From positions 1 through 6,595 of the forward strand of contig JADFZC010000142.1 of the NCBI GenBank assembly GCA_015232735.1: a DNA stretch of 6,595 bases. Direction: 5' to 3'. The DNA comes from Oligoflexales bacterium (GTDB lineage: Bacteria > Bdellovibrionota > Oligoflexia > Oligoflexales > Oligoflexaceae). Shown here one piece after another: positions 3-6,532 of the stretch. Position 1 is the stretch's first letter, and each line of letters opens with the position of its first letter. Both the position numbers and the translations under genes were made by a program. The notes beneath the pieces are model-generated. The model worked only from the letters and a program-made list of their open reading frames with translations. It searched no databases and was not told the origin of the DNA.

Positions 3-1925
3 ATCATCCTTGCGGATACGGGCAGCGGAATGGTCTATGAAATCAAGGGCGACTTCGAGTTCATTCCGCCTTATAAATATTTTTCCGCGTTTGTGGCGGA
101 AAATCCTGTCACCGACAATATAGATTTCGTCAAATATGTAAAAAGATCTGAAATGAAATCTGTCTACGAACTTTCATATGAAGATATCCATCACCCTGTC
201 TGGTATATCCTCGATGTAAAAAATTCCAGCGACGCCATGGGGCGGCTCGTGCTTGAGGCCACTGGAGGAATAAAAACCTTCATGGTTAAGGCTATAGACG
301 AAAATGGGATCAAAAATGATGCAGAAAGCGAGGTTAATCATTTTTTTGCTTTTGCCAGATTTCTTTTGAAATTTAAAAGAGGCAGTTTCAGAATTTTCAT
401 GCGATCCGAAGGATATCTGCAAAATGCCTCATTTTTTATTTTGGTACAGGATGTCGGAAAATCCTATGAAACCGATTCCACAATAACCACCCTGATCGGT
501 GTCATTAAAGTCATAATACTGGGAGGGATTGCCAATCTCATAATCAGCAGTGTTCTTTTCCTATGGTATTTCAGGGAAAAGATTCCCTTGTACTATTTCT
601 TTTTGCTCAACGCCCTTTTTGTCTATGTCTATTCGATAACGTGCCAGATTTCAACCAGAATCGATGCAGATGTCATGAATCTGATAAAATATGACACAGA
701 AAAAGGGTATTTAATCAACGCATGGCCTTATGTAATCATTTCCCTTCACATCTGTTTCATTTTACTAACAGCTTCGGCCGGCAATCTCTATGATTTGAGA
801 AACAAGTCAAAATGGTCCCATTATTCTCTTATTCTTATTATTTTATTAATGTTTCAGGAGATGACTTCGCTTATTATCAGCGATTTTTATCTGTCAAGAT
901 TAAATGCCAACCTGAACCTTCTTGCTATTTTCCTGGCATCACTGATTTGCGTTTTAAAATACAACGATGAACCTTTCATCAAAAAGCTTCCAAGCCTGGG
1001 AATTGTCACTATAGCATATAGTGTCGTTGCGATTCCTTTTTTTTCGGTCGTCAATACTCTAAAGATCGGCAATGAACTCATGATGATAATATTTTGCCTT
1101 GCCAGCATTGCCATCAGTTTTTTCCTGCCCGTTATCTTCGCAATCAACCTGAACAAGCGGCAAAAGGGTACCGTATGGATAAGAAGAGAGATAAAATCTG
1201 CCAAGAAGGAAGAAATATATACGATGTACAACCATAGGCTGATAGAACCAATCCTGCATTACCAGGATGCAATGTCTGTCTCGTTCAGGCACAGGCTATC
1301 TCTGAGGGGACCTAATCATTGGTATGGACTTCGCAGAATCGACGACCGAAATTCAATTCTGATAGCATTTGTCGACGTCAAGAGGCAAGGCTCCCAGGCA
1401 GCCATACTCAAAGGTTTCCTTACAGGAATTTTTCATGCAATGGAAATATTGGATGATGAGGGTACTGATGATACAGCCAGAATCGAAAGGTATCTTTCCA
1501 CTATCGTGACGGCACTTGCCGATAATCTGCATTACAAGGTTTTTCAAACAGATATTCTGCTTGTACTTATTTCTTTCAATACGCGCTGTCTTTACATCAT
1601 GCATAACAACCGTGAAATTTTTACGTTAATCACTAAAAATGTGGAGGATCAGCTGACAAAAGTCGAAAGTGAATCCCTGAAAGAACATTTTTCAAAGACA
1701 TGTCTGAAAATTGATATGATCGATAACCTCATAATTCACAGTAAAAATGTAAACAATGAGGAACTAGCAAAATACGATCCCGAGGATCTGACTGACGAGA
1801 AACTGTCCCTGAAACGGATAAATTTTCTCAGGAAAGACGAAGACCAGGGTGAGATTTGCCTTTTGAACATCCATTTTCTGAAAAAAGAAGGCAGCCAACT
1901 GCCTCACAATGATGCAGTGGCGTAG
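3..1925 (+). CDS. 7TM sensor with degenerate SpoIIE/PP2C-type phosphatase domain (5' partial, predicted pseudophosphatase)
   Basis: The frame is open to the left edge, so the true start lies outside the window. The first internal Met (30) has no spaced ribosome binding site and would remove any signal peptide. Numbered from that Met, residues 1-145 resemble a 7TMR-DISM periplasmic sensor domain (a GDFEF motif, then a beta-rich stretch around HPVWYILDV). Seven hydrophobic helices follow at about 152-180, 187-207, 233-254, 264-284, 292-310, 321-342 and 350-373. The cytoplasmic part (about 410-617) aligns by eye with the SpoIIE domain of the next gene. However, GGD is GPN (427-429), GDVTGHG is VDVKRQG (448-454, only the Asp kept), YTDG is HSKN (570-573) and DDTS is lost near 605. 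In this family those acidic residues bind the catalytic metals, so activity is unlikely. I infer a regulatory or receptor role with the downstream paralogue. It probably shares an operon with that gene. Confidence 0.85.
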   Translation: MILADTGSGMVYEIKGDFEFIPPYKYFSAFVAENPVTDNIDFVKYVKRSEMKSVYELSYEDIHHPVWYILDVKNSSDAMGRLVLEATGGIKTFMVKAIDENGIKNDAESEVNHFFAFARFLLKFKRGSFRIFMRSEGYLQNASFFILVQDVGKSYETDSTITTLIGVIKVIILGGIANLIISSVLFLWYFREKIPLYYFFLLNALFVYVYSITCQISTRIDADVMNLIKYDTEKGYLINAWPYVIISLHICFILLTASAGNLYDLRNKSKWSHYSLILIILLMFQEMTSLIISDFYLSRLNANLNLLAIFLASLICVLKYNDEPFIKKLPSLGIVTIAYSVVAIPFFSVVNTLKIGNELMMIIFCLASIAISFFLPVIFAINLNKRQKGTVWIRREIKSAKKEEIYTMYNHRLIEPILHYQDAMSVSFRHRLSLRGPNHWYGLRRIDDRNSILIAFVDVKRQGSQAAILKGFLTGIFHAMEILDDEGTDDTARIERYLSTIVTALADNLHYKVFQTDILLVLISFNTRCLYIMHNNREIFTLITKNVEDQLTKVESESLKEHFSKTCLKIDMIDNLIIHSKNVNNEELAKYDPEDLTDEKLSLKRINFLRKDEDQGEICLLNIHFLKKEGSQLPHNDAVA

Positions 1926-1970
1926 AGGTCACTTGAAATATATCTGGAATTTATTTGCCAATAAGGCGGC

Positions 1971-1975
1971 AAGGA
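1971..1975 (+). promoter_or_regulatory. Ribosome binding site selecting the 1981 start
   Basis: AAGGA lies 5 nt before the ATG at 1981, within a purine-rich run. The nearest purine-rich motif to the alternative ATG at 1909 is GAAGG at 1887-1891, which is 17 nt away and too distant. This favours a 55-bp gap between the two phosphatase-type genes over a 17-bp overlap. Confidence 0.6.
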
Positions 1976-1980
1976 AAAAA

Positions 1981-3942
1981 ATGAGAGCCAATACCATCAT
2001 AATTCTGTTTCTTAGCCATTTCTTATGCCAGAGCAGCCTCATTGCAAAGGATCTCATATACTCGAAAGATAAAAAAGTTGTTATGGACCTTTACAGATAT
2101 CTTGATGTATACACGCAAAAATTTGACGAAGACACAAGCCTGACAGAGATTCCCAATTTTGTTCCATCATCTTTCAACCCCCTGGAATTCTCACTATATT
2201 CCAGCGGGGATAAACTTGAAATATTCAGACTAACCATAGTAAATCCCTATAAGGATCAGATAAACCTCATAATCAGCCAGCATGTTGAATCCAAGAGATT
2301 TTTTGTTGCTGAAGAAAGGCAAAACAGACTTGAGATGATGCCTCCATACAGACTTTTGTCGGCAAATCCAGCCGCCTTCGAGGTCACTTTAAAAGAGGGC
2401 GTGAATGTTTTCTACATAGGATTGAGAAGCAATTTCACCCCTGGATACGCCCTCTTTGCCACTGAATCAAAAAATTTCGCGAATATCAGCTATTTTTTAA
2501 TTGTTTTCCAGTTTGCAACAATAGGATCCCAGACCGTGCTCGCCGCCATCATTGTTATCTTTCTGTTTTCAAGAAAACAATCGATTTATTTCTATTTTCT
2601 TATTGATATCGTCACCATTCTCCTTATCTGCAGATATTCCCTGATTATTTTTGATTTGAAGCCGGTGATCACGTTACCCTCCGTCAACTTCAATTCCAAA
2701 CTGGGAATATGGTGCAGCAATTTCGACCTTGGATATTACTGTTTCATCCTGCAGCCGCTCATGACGATACCTTTGCAGAGCCTGCTTCTGGATCTCAAGA
2801 AAAAAAATCCAAGGTGGCATCTCTTTGCCATCCTGTCTCCAATCCTTTTTTTATTTCTTCTGCCTTTCCTCACATACTTTGGAAGATTACTGGCTCATTT
2901 TTCAGCTGCCATATTCTACGGCACAATATGCCTCATCCATTTTTATCTCGCAAAAAAATACACAGTAAACAAAATCTGGCTGAACATGAGCGGATCTATA
3001 CCGTTCATTCTGTTTTATCTTTTTATATTCACAAGTCACTATATTCCAATTTTTAATCTCGATTTCACAGTTTTCATGATTTCACAATATTCAATCTACA
3101 CAATACATTTGATACTTGTAGGCATTCCCACACTAAAGATACTTAGACTGGATCAAATCACGATCGATGAGATCTACTCGAACGAGGAGGCTGGTCAGGC
3201 ACTCCAGTCGGCTGTCATGACAGGTCTTTCTGAGATTAGAAGCAATACGATCATAAACAATATTTTTGATATCGAAATATTTTACAAATCAGCAAGCAGG
3301 ACCGGAGGAGATTGCCTTGGCTTCAGGCATTTCAGGGAGTCGGAGCTTTTTATGGCATACATAGGCGATGTAACGGGACACGGGGTTTCATCCGCAATAA
3401 TCACCGGTATCGTCAACGGAGTAATAAAAACAACTGAAGCACCAAAAATGAACGAAAATCGGGATGAACCGATTAATCAGTTCCTGACCGATATAGTCCT
3501 ATCCCTGAATAAAACCCTTTATAAAACTTCGGATATGATCGGCAAGGCACTCACTGCAATTATTACGGTTTTCGATTTGAAAACAGACAAAGCCTATATG
3601 ATAAATGCCTCCCATCCATTTCCAATCATGCATTCAGATGTCCTTATACCCCTGACGTCCGCCAACTCATCCATAATGGGGATTTCTGAAAAGCCAAAAA
3701 TTCATGTGAACAGATACACAATGAATCCTGGATACTCTCTATTTCTTTATACTGATGGACTATTTGAAAATTCACGAACGAATTTGAATCCATTGAAGCT
3801 GAAGCCGATCATAAAAAATATCATAAAAACAAAAACGGCCAGCGAATTAAAAGAGGTCATCGTGGGAATGTTCAATGAATCTGTAAAAAATATAACAGAG
3901 ATCGATGATACATCATTCATTATCATACGAAAAAGAAGCTAA
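1981..3942 (+). CDS. 7TM sensor serine phosphatase, SpoIIE/PP2C family (intact catalytic motifs)
   Basis: This is a predicted inner-membrane serine/threonine phosphatase. Residues are numbered from the chosen Met at 1981. Residues 1-22 look like a signal peptide (short basic start, hydrophobic core, then LIA before KDL). Residues 23-168 form a periplasmic 7TMR-DISM-like domain. Seven membrane helices lie at about 170-197, 201-224, 250-271, 279-301, 304-324, 337-356 and 362-386. The SpoIIE domain (about 430-653) has every hallmark: GGD (442-444), GDVTGHG (462-468), NASHP (542-546), LYTDG (589-593) and DDTSF (642-646). Family members usually dephosphorylate STAS-domain anti-sigma antagonists in partner switching; no such partner gene is in the window. 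The frame extends up to an ATG at 1909, overlapping the previous gene by 17 bp, but that start has no well-placed ribosome binding site. The 1981 start has one and gives a cleaner signal peptide. Function is confident; ligand and substrate are unknown. Confidence 0.9.
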   Translation: MRANTIIILFLSHFLCQSSLIAKDLIYSKDKKVVMDLYRYLDVYTQKFDEDTSLTEIPNFVPSSFNPLEFSLYSSGDKLEIFRLTIVNPYKDQINLIISQHVESKRFFVAEERQNRLEMMPPYRLLSANPAAFEVTLKEGVNVFYIGLRSNFTPGYALFATESKNFANISYFLIVFQFATIGSQTVLAAIIVIFLFSRKQSIYFYFLIDIVTILLICRYSLIIFDLKPVITLPSVNFNSKLGIWCSNFDLGYYCFILQPLMTIPLQSLLLDLKKKNPRWHLFAILSPILFLFLLPFLTYFGRLLAHFSAAIFYGTICLIHFYLAKKYTVNKIWLNMSGSIPFILFYLFIFTSHYIPIFNLDFTVFMISQYSIYTIHLILVGIPTLKILRLDQITIDEIYSNEEAGQALQSAVMTGLSEIRSNTIINNIFDIEIFYKSASRTGGDCLGFRHFRESELFMAYIGDVTGHGVSSAIITGIVNGVIKTTEAPKMNENRDEPINQFLTDIVLSLNKTLYKTSDMIGKALTAIITVFDLKTDKAYMINASHPFPIMHSDVLIPLTSANSSIMGISEKPKIHVNRYTMNPGYSLFLYTDGLFENSRTNLNPLKLKPIIKNIIKTKTASELKEVIVGMFNESVKNITEIDDTSFIIIRKRS

Positions 3943-3956
3943 TCCCATTCATCATT

Positions 3957-4238
3957 TTATTCTCTATTGGCGATCTTCTCTATCTCCCTGGCAACTTCCT
4001 CACAGGATAATCCGGTAATTTTTGAAAGTTGCTCGATATCGTATTTAATGTTTGAAAATGCTATTAAATTATGAAGTATAGCGATACGACCCATTCGGTC
4101 ACCTTTTTCGATACCTTCTTCTCTACCTTCTTCTCTACCTTTTTCGATACCTTCCGCAATACCTTCTTCTCTGCCTTTTGCCAGACCTTCCGCAAGACCC
4201 TCTGCACGGGCACCTGCGAGATTGGATACATAACGCAT
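3957..4238 (-). CDS. Candidate internal product of the Rpn gene (RpnS-like C-terminal protein, 93 aa)
   Basis: Met249 of the nuclease frame is preceded by a purine-rich run containing AAGG 5 nt and GGAG 9 nt before the ATG. This is a much better ribosome binding site than that of the full-length start. Translation from it would give a 93-residue protein made of the xxxG repeat block and the helical tail, without the nuclease domain. In E. coli, rpn genes are known to encode a short C-terminal form from an internal start that inhibits the full-length nuclease. Applying that here is inference, because this protein belongs to a related but different Pfam family (PDDEXK_2 rather than the YhgA-like group). 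Confidence 0.35.
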   Translation of the reverse strand: MRYVSNLAGARAEGLAEGLAKGREEGIAEGIEKGREEGREEGIEKGDRMGRIAILHNLIAFSNIKYDIEQLSKITGLSCEEVAREIEKIANRE

Positions 4239-4982
4239 TAACCCCTTCTCCCTAATCCGTGCAAGTTCTTTGGCATCAGGGTCGGCTGATAAAATTTCCA
4301 AAGTCTTTTTCGTCTTCTGGATCACTTTTTTAGTTTTATTGAGAGATGGATTATTCATGTGCTCCTCCATAAGAGTCAAATCATCCGGATTATATAAAAA
4401 TCGCACCCACAGATCCAAAGAATTATTTCTGCCAGAATGGCGGCTTTGATCAATACCCTGAATTAACTTCTCAATTTCAATGAAATGAGCAATAAAATAC
4501 GATTTTAAAAAGGCCCTCTGGCGACACTCCTGCATGTAAAAAGAGAGATGGTAATCTTCAAAATCGGTCTCAAAATACTTTTTTACGAGGAAAAAAATCG
4601 AAATGACAGGTTTAAGCATTTCATAAGAATCGCCAGCCTTCAACTGACAAGAAGCCATTTTTGCCAGATAGTAGGTCGACCTTTGGCTCAGGAAATATTC
4701 GTTTCCCATTTGCATCTCGATATCAATTCTGCAGCCATCATCCAGCTTGACCAGAATATCGAGAACCACCCCCTTCTCTTCGATATTCTCTTTTGGCAGG
4801 GTTGGGTTTAACACTTCAAGCTCAAGGATTGGCGAAACAGGGTCGATAACAGCCGTTATGATATCCATCAAGCCTTCTTTACTGTGAGGCTGGGCAAATA
4901 ACATCTTAAATACAACATCCAGCTTGGGATCAAGATGATCGCCCTCTTTGCTGTTTTTTTTCACTCCATTTTCCTCGCTCAT
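3957..4982 (-). CDS. Rpn family PDDEXK nuclease (PDDEXK_2 'transposase family' protein)
   Basis: This is a predicted DNA nuclease of the recombination-promoting (Rpn) type. The N-terminal half matches the family pattern: LDPKLDVVFKMLF (18-30, with Asp22), VLEVLNP-like strand near 54-60, VVLDI with Asp75, IEMQ (88-91, Glu89 and Gln91) and the Tyr-rich helix RSTYYLAK (101-108) before LKPVISI. Asp22, Asp75, Glu89 and Gln91 are the expected PD-(D/E)xK-type active-site residues, so the enzyme looks intact. The C-terminal 93 residues hold ten 4-residue xxxG repeats (259-298) and a helical end. The length of 341 residues is normal for the family. The ATG at 4982 has no ribosome binding site, whereas a GTG at 4964 (codon 7) has GAGGA 7 nt upstream, so the true start may be six codons later. 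The gene converges on the phosphatase with a 14-bp gap and no visible terminator. The family is often annotated as a transposase, but no transposon ends are seen. Confidence 0.88.
   Translation of the reverse strand: MSEENGVKKNSKEGDHLDPKLDVVFKMLFAQPHSKEGLMDIITAVIDPVSPILELEVLNPTLPKENIEEKGVVLDILVKLDDGCRIDIEMQMGNEYFLSQRSTYYLAKMASCQLKAGDSYEMLKPVISIFFLVKKYFETDFEDYHLSFYMQECRQRAFLKSYFIAHFIEIEKLIQGIDQSRHSGRNNSLDLWVRFLYNPDDLTLMEEHMNNPSLNKTKKVIQKTKKTLEILSADPDAKELARIREKGLMRYVSNLAGARAEGLAEGLAKGREEGIAEGIEKGREEGREEGIEKGDRMGRIAILHNLIAFSNIKYDIEQLSKITGLSCEEVAREIEKIANRE
4089..4208 (-). repeat. In-frame 12-bp tandem repeats in the Rpn C-terminal region
   Basis: Ten consecutive 4-residue units (RAEG, LAEG, LAKG, REEG, IAEG, IEKG, REEG, REEG, IEKG, DRMG) place Gly at every fourth position from 262 to 298. 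At the DNA level this is a degenerate 12-bp repeat. Such xEG tails are typical of this nuclease family and tend to vary in copy number between relatives. A change in copy number keeps the frame. Confidence 0.85.
4242..4253 (-). promoter_or_regulatory. Internal ribosome binding site inside the Rpn gene
   Basis: On the minus strand this segment reads AGGGAGAAGGGG, ending 3 nt before the internal ATG at 4238. It contains GGAG at 9 nt and AAGG at 5 nt from that ATG, both plausible Shine-Dalgarno placements. It also encodes ordinary residues (Arg-Glu-Lys-Gly), so a chance match is possible. Confidence 0.4.
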
Positions 4983-5021: not shown

Positions 5022-5043
5022 AGTGACATTTGAAAATGTCACT
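5022..5043. promoter_or_regulatory. Perfect 10-bp inverted repeat upstream of the Rpn gene (candidate operator)
   Basis: AGTGACATTT and AAATGTCACT are perfect reverse complements separated by GA, centred about 50 bp upstream of the Rpn ATG. A partial copy of the core (ATGTCA) recurs at 4989-4994, next to the start codon. Neither strand has a T-run after the dyad, so it is a poor terminator and more likely a binding site for a dimeric regulator. A weaker dyad, TGATAC/GTATCA with a 12-bp spacer, lies at 5047-5070. I see no convincing -35/-10 pair. Confidence 0.45.
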
Positions 5044-5080: not shown

Positions 5081-5136
5081 GGAGGGGAATTGGATTTACC
5101 CCAATTATCCAAGGTAACGTCATGTGTCACCAATAT
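5081..5136. repeat. Full-length unit 1 (divergent, 56 bp)
   Basis: This unit lies at the Rpn-side edge of the array. It is one base shorter than the parent and carries several private changes (AATTGG, CAATTATCCAAGG and TGTCACC in place of AATGGG, CAACTATCCAGGG and TGTCCCC). That marks it as the oldest or least homogenised copy. Confidence 0.85.
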
Positions 5137-5150
5137 GGTGTCACCAATAT

Positions 5151-5207
5151 GGAAGAGGAATGGGATTTACCCCAACTATCCAGGGTAACGTCATGTGTCC
5201 CCAATAT
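5151..5207. repeat. Full-length unit 3 (57 bp)
   Basis: This copy differs from the copy at 5280-5336 at a single base (GGAAGAGG against GGAAGGGG), so the two share a very recent origin or have been homogenised. Confidence 0.9.
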
Positions 5208-5279
5208 GCCCCAATATGCAACTATCCAGGGTAACGTCATGTGTCCCCAATATGCCCAATATGCAATATGCACCAATAT

Positions 5280-5336
5280 GGAAGGGGAATGGGATTTACC
5301 CCAACTATCCAGGGTAACGTCATGTGTCCCCAATAT
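5280..5336. repeat. Full-length unit 9 (57 bp, taken as the parent)
   Basis: This is the copy I used as the reference. The suffixes of this sequence account for units 4-7 and 10-18, allowing one internal base change in unit 13. All units to its right (gene side) are 28 bp or shorter. Confidence 0.9.
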
Positions 5337-5479
5337 GTCAACGTCATGTGTCCCCAATATTGTCCCCAATATTCCCCAATATCCAGGGTAACGTCATGTG
5401 TCCCGAATATCATGTGTCCCCAATATAGTCCCCAATATACATGTGTCCCCAATATGTGTCCCCAATATGCAATATGATG

Positions 5480-6532
5480 CTACCAAATTTTTGCAGCCTT
5501 ATTTTTTAGCAATTGGGATTGCACCATGATCCAGCTTCCCAAACCGTTTAAATCCTTGTTGTAGTGCTTTTTCACATATTGCTTTGAATAACTCAAAGTC
5601 ACTTTTCCAAATTCCTTAGCTACATTTTTGCTGGAAGGAAACTGTTCATCACGTCCCGATATTTTCGCGAAAAGGTGCATATTGATTGTCACCCACAGTG
5701 ACAAACCTCTATTAAAAATATAATCTTCCTCAGTCGCATTGACCACACTTGGAATTAATAGCTTTGGCAAAAGCAGTTCCAGGTTGCTGAGATTTCCAAT
5801 CACAAATGCCATATTCCATGATTCATATAGTGCGGGCCAGCCGGACCTGAACTGATTTTTAACGAAATAACTCCCTGGAAGCACCTCCACTTTTAACACC
5901 GGCTCCTCCATGATCAAGCCCATACCGGCAAGCGCGTTGTCTTTTCTGCCTTCAAGATAGTCTGTCACCACTGCTTCAGAGATATTAAGCTGCAAAAACA
6001 AGTTTCTCTCTTTAAAAAGTGAACCTTGAATTGTGCCTGGCCCCTGACGCCTGATCCGGCCATATTGATCGAAAACATAGTCCATTGTTTTGGTCTTGAT
6101 CGGCTCAAAAATACTTTTGGTTATTCTCGCGATATCATAGCTTGACGAAAAGAAATCCCGCGGTATGCCATTTTTTTCCCGCAGAGTCAAATAGTACTCC
6201 CGGACTTCATCGGTAAAATTGATGTCAACAGCCATTTTTTTGGTCAATTCCTCAAGGAGATACATGAGATGAATTGCCCTTTTTATTTTTTTCCTTGCGG
6301 CTTCATTTTCCGGATTTGGCAATAAATCTTTCTGTACCGCAACGCATAAAAAGTCCCTGAGCACCGGCTGCTTGGTATTAATACCCTCTATCACTTCATT
6401 TAACATGGGGCGAAGCGGTTGCGACGCTGTCAACTTTGCTCCAAGAGAACTTGTGAACGATGCAAAATCTGCCATTCGCAAATCATTAGCCAAAACATCT
6501 TTAAGAAGTTCAACATCAGTGCTCATGTCCAT
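5480..6532 (-). CDS. Hypothetical protein, 350 aa, soluble
   Basis: I do not recognise this protein. It has no signal peptide and no membrane helix, so it is probably cytoplasmic. The first 120 residues look mostly helical, with a basic KKIKR segment at 81-85. The middle holds RRQGPGTIQGSLF (161-173) and a short beta-rich stretch PVLKVEVLPGSYFVKNQF (211-228). The last third is rich in Leu, aromatic residues and Lys, and ends KIW. The ATG at 6532 is chosen because GGA lies 6 nt upstream and an in-frame TGA lies further upstream. A second ATG two codons in is less well spaced. The stop lies 4 bp from the end of the repeat array, so the array would form the start of its 3' untranslated region. 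There is no sign of frameshift or truncation. The gene runs in the same direction as the Rpn gene but is separated from it by 497 bp, so an operon is not implied. Confidence 0.8.
   Translation of the reverse strand: MDMSTDVELLKDVLANDLRMADFASFTSSLGAKLTASQPLRPMLNEVIEGINTKQPVLRDFLCVAVQKDLLPNPENEAARKKIKRAIHLMYLLEELTKKMAVDINFTDEVREYYLTLREKNGIPRDFFSSSYDIARITKSIFEPIKTKTMDYVFDQYGRIRRQGPGTIQGSLFKERNLFLQLNISEAVVTDYLEGRKDNALAGMGLIMEEPVLKVEVLPGSYFVKNQFRSGWPALYESWNMAFVIGNLSNLELLLPKLLIPSVVNATEEDYIFNRGLSLWVTINMHLFAKISGRDEQFPSSKNVAKEFGKVTLSYSKQYVKKHYNKDLNGLGSWIMVQSQLLKNKAAKIW

Follow-up and report, generated by a model that had tools for sequence, protein, structure and literature searches.

The 6595-base stretch of DNA analysed here, which we call the window, contains a block of short repeats that was most likely built from the end of bacterial jumping genes of a widespread, little understood family. 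Growth on one side only, as in this block, recurs across several phyla and stops about 6 or 7 letters beyond the element's end. Judging from its sequence, the block very probably represents a terminal inverted repeat (TIR) of the kind known as TIRYT that stands alone and has expanded. Its parts and its immediate neighbours are as follows.

3957..4982, minus strand: ORF of the Rpn family recombination-promoting nuclease/putative transposase (PDDEXK_2), on the array's other side from the 350-aa ORF; not a Y1 transposase
5081..5475, plus strand: suffix-ladder array of 18 units ending in AATAT; read from left to right, it runs from the inner to the outer side of the TIR
5081..5136, plus strand: unit 1, the innermost and most diverged long copy (GTGTCACC variant)
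5151..5207, plus strand: unit 3, a full 57-nt copy; holds GTCATGTGTCCCC, the last 12 bases of which are the repeated TIR core of genome G033
5190..5202, plus strand: the GTCATGTGTCCCC core of unit 3; its reverse complement starts with GGGGACAC, fitting the published TIRYT motif GGGGWSAS
5271..5337, plus strand: second copy (99%) of 5142-5208; a duplication spanning one earlier AATAT
5280..5336, plus strand: unit 9, the second 57-nt copy
5476..5483, no strand: right border; the stop codon of the minus-strand ORF (5480-5482) lies 4 bases beyond the array
5480..6532, minus strand: ORF of 350 aa whose end adjoins the array; nothing in Pfam or NCBIfam matches it at E 0.001

When the plus strand from 5081 to 5475 is cut after each AATAT, 18 contiguous units result, with ends at 5136, 5150, 5207, 5217, 5253, 5262, 5269, 5279, 5336, 5360, 5372, 5382, 5410, 5426, 5438, 5455, 5468 and 5475. 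The units that follow unit 1 measure 14, 57, 10, 36, 9, 7, 10, 57, 24, 12, 10, 28, 16, 12, 17, 13 and 7 nt. A first-pass annotation of this DNA had described such a series, with a common AATAT end and left ends that vary over lengths of 7-57 nt, and both the split and a suffix-ladder detector that tolerates one mismatch confirm it. Suffixes shared with another unit make up 98% of the bases in the 17 units after unit 1, the detector scores 230 on the plus strand versus a best of 75 on the opposite strand, and no ladder emerged from 30 first-order Markov resamplings of the window, each examined on one strand. With lengths of 7 to 57 nt, the units lack the constant length seen in CRISPR arrays and ordinary minisatellites. 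The further claim that the units are suffixes of a 57-nt parent holds overall, apart from a few substitutions, among them CCCG in place of CCCC in one unit (5383-5410), and stray bases at the front of some units, which begin with one to three bases (G, A or GTC) beyond any suffix match. CACC is present in units 1, 2 and 8. Since 5271-5337, which comprises most of unit 8, unit 9 and one further base, is a 99% copy of 5142-5208, one copying event probably crossed an earlier AATAT.

The name TIRYT was given to RAYT-like genes that lie between TIRs, with the motif GGGGWSAS common to some of these TIRs (Di Nocera et al., 2013; PMC3733652), and 20 of 26 TIRYT examples were assigned to subclass 2.1 of TnpAY1 (Quentin et al., 2018; PMC6006769). 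Proteins of this subclass, which carry the HuH motif NHVH and a Y motif of the YIELNP kind (Table 1 of the latter paper), occurred in 14.9% of the strains surveyed there, and no REP-like sequence was found beside them. In agreement with the motif, TGTCCCC appears as GGGGACA on the minus strand of the window units that carry it, and those with GTGTCCCC read GGGGACAC there; unit 1 has GGTGACAC instead. Given the fit of this minus-strand GGGGACAC to GGGGWSAS, the window unit very probably represents the outer portion of a TIR of the TIRYT type, the end of elements with a Y1/HUH transposase; the first-pass annotation had not recognised this element. The ORFs of the window include no Y1 gene, and no inverted partner of the TIR was found in it: all nine matches to T[CG][AT]CCCC lie on the plus strand, eight of them inside the array.

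The whole 57-nt unit was not found in phages or plasmids (blastn), nor in viral contigs or genome contigs (exact pattern); against phages, blastn returned two matches of only 22-24 nt with E about 1. Relatives of the neighbouring 350-aa ORF led to the Riflebacteria MAG G013, whose phylum was then searched. Across 39 genomes of this phylum, the array DNA gave eight weak matches in a single genome, G033, most of which concern the same portion of the array. In G033 there are 81 exact matches to TCATGTGTCCCC, or 118 when one mismatch is allowed (exact copies included), while the reversed TCATGTGTCCCC that served as a control occurs there 0 times exactly and once with at most one mismatch. The other 38 genomes have no exact TCATGTGTCCCC or one; in the three with a single copy (G027, G029 and G046) the surrounding 500 bases show no repeat family. 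The copies in G033 face both ways, often paired in inverted orientation at a distance of about 40 bp and sometimes lacking a near partner, and many bear short truncated copies of their tail at the outer side, as where GTCCCCGGAATT is followed by CCCGGAATT, CGGCGGAATC, CGGAATT, CCGGAATT and again CCGGAATT. One Y1_Tnp gene was found in this genome (PF01797 above cut-off; NF047646 REP_Tyr_transpos below it, with 64 of 80 bits). It is bracketed by inverted copies of GGTATCATGTCCCCGGAACTC, outside one of which stands a ladder of TCCCCGGAACTC, CCGGAACTC, GCCGGAACTC and CCGGAACTC. By eye, the protein contains NHVH and YVERNP, and the Y1 protein of locus L299, described below, NHVH and YVELNP, motifs by which they may belong to subclass 2.1. 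The pattern GTCATGTGTCMCC, searched in 290 genomes of the phylum of G002, matched once in each of six genomes and revealed no family.

At such TIRs, the outer flank beside ...TGTCCCC or ...TGACCCC is a hotspot of tandem duplication, with the outer edge fixed some 6-7 nt outside CCCC and an inner edge that varies within the TIR; repeated use yields a ladder. Duplications were scored from -90 to +110 around each end, with at least 9 matching bases, a unit of 5-60 and at most 2 unmatched, and the bin counts for G033, the Y1 ends and the replicate all come from searches that were not anchored at the motif. A first set of 97 Y1 loci was drawn from the Riflebacteria phylum (31), plasmids (6), the phylum of G010 (30) and the phylum of G004 (30); TIR pairs were present at 41 of them (10, 4, 13 and 14, respectively), and the same finder run on pieces of other DNA reported 0 of 90 and 3 of 153. 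Copies too near the ends of their stretch were excluded, leaving 79 of 81 in G033 and 71 of the 78 ends in the first set. Near-identical copies were counted once in the G033, first-set and edge counts, but not in the replicate. In G033, the outer edge of a duplication's first copy falls in the bin 0-9 nt outside CCCC at 16 of 79 exact copies, with 0-3 in the other bins. At the Y1 ends of the first set the same bin holds 12 of 71; the next bins hold 7 (+10) and 5 (+20), raised partly because further units of these ladders fall there, and elsewhere the counts are 0-3. Against a background of 1.3 per bin, a count of 12 has a Poisson probability of 1.5e-8 and a count of 16 one of 9e-13. A replicate, for which the prediction was fixed in advance and the test left unchanged, placed 6 of 30 ends in the bin and 0-1 in the others for the phylum of G001 (an Opitutaceae MAG), where a TIR pair occurred at 15 of 30 loci. 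Its other half, from the phylum of G003, was uninformative because only 1 of 30 loci had a TIR pair, the two ends of which were without a duplication.

The edges were taken as the middle of the possible edge range for duplications in the 0-9 nt bin. On this measure the outer edge lies outside CCCC at +7.2 (sd 1.2) in G033, +6.7 (sd 0.9) in the first set and +6.4 (sd 1.7) in the replicate, and the inner edge at -3.8 (sd 4.4), -6.0 (sd 2.7) and -5.2 (sd 2.2), respectively. Since an even spread within a 10-nt bin would give an sd of about 2.9, the width of the bin does not by itself account for how tight the outer edge is. In the window, the edge at AATAT or AATATG corresponds to +5 or +6 outside CCCC. 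The first-pass annotation had deduced one fixed and one variable boundary from the window alone; this holds at related elements of other genomes (outer sd 0.9-1.7 versus inner 2.2-4.4). Variable right ends in other copies, which would speak against it, were not seen, although the outer edge is fixed only to within 1-2 nt and some duplications lie further out.

No such hotspot appeared at random positions (1 duplication in the 0-9 nt bin among 192; 0-3 per bin) or at the same motifs outside TIRs (0 of 90 sites in L001-L021 and 2 at 93 sites within TIR-bearing Y1 loci), and 400 motif sites in viral loci picked for repeated TGTCCCC gave a flat distribution of 5-16 per bin. The pattern TGTCCCCN{4,8}TGTCCCC matched at least 80 loci in viral contigs; examined by eye, these were mostly without a ladder among the matches listed. 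A cruder, high-threshold detector reported just one case at the 31 Y1 loci of the Riflebacteria phylum, a microsatellite in L119, and the small ladders at these loci were found through the TIR motif. Such a duplication is borne by just 17-20% of ends, which suggests a side product or a rare event, likely a side reaction.

An array with the architecture of the one in the window is present at L299, from the phylum of G010 (Pseudomonadota). Its 14 units end in GGATTTC, measure 7-40 nt after the first and include an imperfect unit close to the outer end; the array occupies about 2188-2545, immediately upstream of a minus-strand Y1 ORF (1489-2163), and its terminal motif, GTGTCACC, is the same as in window unit 1. 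In the Pseudomonas aeruginosa record NZ_CP116719 (PLSDB), two paralogous pairs that share both flanks, with few substitutions, differ, where TIR meets tail, by a single unit that measures 17 bp in one pair and 16 bp in the other. This matches the prediction of stepwise gain or loss at one side. In a wider search, most of the P. aeruginosa ladder query was found only in its own record; two partial matches were in plasmids, and none in phages or E. coli. From the same record comes the 24.3-kb locus L358, in which 24 copies (at most 2 substitutions) of a TIRYT-type TIR ending in AAATAAATCTGTCCCC lie between orphan toxin/immunity-type modules. Five inverted pairs there are 144-163 bp apart and three pairs, 773 bp apart, surround annotated transposase genes, an arrangement that looks as if the element marked or shaped module borders.

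Y1 enzymes cut single-stranded DNA and hold the 5' end on a tyrosine, while the free 3' OH can prime or attack (PMC8266576). We infer that the fixed edge would be the Y1 cut. The reading that we favour, and consider somewhat better than an even bet, is that the window is a solo expanded TIRYT-type TIR in which the Y1 cut sets the fixed edge and a 3' end re-engaging inside the TIR builds the ladder. In this process, a Y1 enzyme would nick single-stranded DNA about 6-7 nt outside GGGG and leave a 3' OH. The 3' end would not be rejoined at once and would re-engage at a variable point within the TIR, through strand transfer onto a second nicked copy or through re-priming followed by copying. It would then be extended or joined up to the same cut again, so that each round would add one 5'-truncated unit. 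The window array would require about sixteen rounds at one unit each, and fewer if several units were copied together, as probably units 8 and 9 were. Repeated copying with an upstream restart and repeated insertion at the boundary, both named in the first-pass annotation, are both possible. A guide pairing of the tail of about 6 nt with the interior of the TIR, as in IS200/IS605, was also considered, since it would have lent support to a cut-site rule: in the first set (78 ends) 1 of 2000 permutations was as good. It was dropped because it failed in G033 (276 of 2000) and in the replicate (3709 of 5000), and because the control on the same strand also gave a raised value (17 of 2000).

The strongest rival, which we regard as unlikely, is replication slippage independent of any transposase, with one edge fixed by a polymerase that stalls at the outer edge of the TIR, be it at a hairpin foot or at a bound protein. 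Tandem duplication is the typical product of slippage, and several TIR ends can fold together with their flank (e.g., L069, L119 and L311). At 79 perfect hairpins (stem at least 9, loop 3-8, one side examined) in 1.01 Mb of unrelated DNA, no outer edge fell in the 0-9 nt bin outside the foot. The window unit folds no better than its shuffles (z +0.85), and these two results also disfavour the processing of a hairpin-forming element, another idea of the first reading. The absence of the hotspot at the same motif outside TIRs counts further against slippage.

The junctions bear on the same question. Many outside the window share 1-4 bases, as slippage would have it; there, the range runs from 2 unmatched bases up to 4 shared, and 7 are shared once. 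In an exact parse of the 17 window junctions, 13 share no base, one shares 1, one shares 2 and two are uninformative (57-nt units). The unit that begins CCAGGG is misparsed among those 13 because of its substitution, and once this is corrected 12 of the 15 informative junctions share no base. The mean is 0.4 shared bases per informative junction, compared with a chance value of 0.44; the count depends on the parse, and if the unit end were read as AATATGC five more junctions would share one C. The shared TAT before CCAGGG and AT before GTGTCC that had been pointed out earlier are both correct, as exceptions among junctions that mostly share nothing, and template switching led by shared bases lacks support as a general rule for the window. 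With so few shared bases, joining by an enzyme fits somewhat better than slippage, though both are possible.

Somewhat less probable still is the repeated insertion of separate TIR fragments by one-ended transposition, in which 3'-complete, 5'-variable pieces would arrive from other genomic copies. Some window junctions have unexplained bases that would suit it. The same several positions also distinguish unit 1 (AATTGG, ATTATCCAAGG, CACC) from both full units, 3 and 9 (window 5081-5207), which suggests that a second source copy came into the array early. However, tails differ between loci and yet are mostly constant within one ladder, and this points to local copying of the same end and not to pieces from elsewhere. 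An assembly artefact of a repeat is highly improbable, for although the window array rests on a single contig of 6595 bases, which the window spans in full and which probably comes from a metagenome, and most related loci come from multi-contig genomes, the pattern recurs in many independent genomes and the paralogues in the P. aeruginosa PLSDB record differ by one unit.

Arrays in which 5'-truncated copies follow one another head to tail and share their 3' end are also formed by the telomeric HeT-A and TART elements of Drosophila, which are long and are reverse-transcribed at chromosome ends. The window array resembles them in its 5'-truncated head-to-tail copies and differs in that its units are only 7-57 nt; no reverse transcriptase was recognised in the window. 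One fixed and one variable end are likewise produced by the one-ended transposition of IS91-like HUH elements. Their enzymes, of another HUH type, carry DNA outward from the element, whereas the variable end here lies inside the terminal repeat. The nearest relatives are the TIRYT/TIRtron TIRs (PMC3733652; mostly subclass 2.1 of PMC6006769), with which our sequences have in common the GGGGWSAS motif within the TIR, the inverted TIRs around a Y1 gene (at 41 of the 97 first-set loci, including that of G033) and the dispersal of TIR families as dimers and clusters. Unlike them, the window has no Y1 gene of its own, and in the available parts of their text neither paper reports truncated copies laddered on one side of a TIR or duplications with a fixed edge beyond it; the strings 'truncated' and 'duplicat' are absent from the main text of PMC3733652. 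REP/REPIN and BIME sequences with their RAYT (Bertels and Rainey, 2011; PMC3116915) are similar in being dispersed short inverted pairs tied to a Y1 gene and in forming tandem clusters. REPs have GTAG and a hairpin, however, and the 57-nt window unit lacks the tetranucleotide and any such folding, while the REPIN tandem clusters described in that source repeat whole units with their flanks and not suffixes that share one end. Among the matches listed in the open-licence literature, as judged by title and the opening of the abstract, no description of suffix ladders at TIRs was found.

A wider version of our favoured reading seems to us evenly poised: that TIRYT enzymes cut and re-engage and thereby extend the ends of their elements one truncated unit at a time, in at least the Riflebacteria, Pseudomonadota, Opitutaceae and deltaproteobacterial phyla sampled. 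Every ladder in a genome would then preserve traces of the enzyme's activity and of where it cuts, about 6-7 nt outside GGGG. The ladders would offer a prediction of the Y1 cut position from sequence only. A clue to DNA recognition and cutting is relevant given the finding that subclass 2.1 has no adjacent REP-like sequence (PMC6006769). Ladders could also serve to follow recent element activity from strain to strain, and they could explain how a class of odd bacterial repeats arose for which ordinary minisatellite models do not account.

The remainder of the window yielded several minor observations. Rfam gave two weak matches on it, both far under the cut-off. The family of the 350-aa ORF is patchily distributed, with 21 loci (L001-L021) in MAGs and isolates of many groups; one Oligoflexia MAG accounts for three of these, and another lies on a contig assigned to a Pacearchaeota bin. 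Positions 3-3942 hold two ORFs in succession, of 640 and 677 aa, the second with a SpoIIE phosphatase domain; leaving aside the window's own protein, the 16 matches of the 677-aa ORF have 21-30% identity over 25-43% of its length. Just past the inner end of the array and before the Rpn ORF, an inverted repeat, AGTGACATT TGAA AATGTCACT, lies at 5022-5043. The 3' part of the Rpn family ORF (4101-4203) contains a 12/36-bp tandem repeat that encodes EGREEGIEKG-like repeats.
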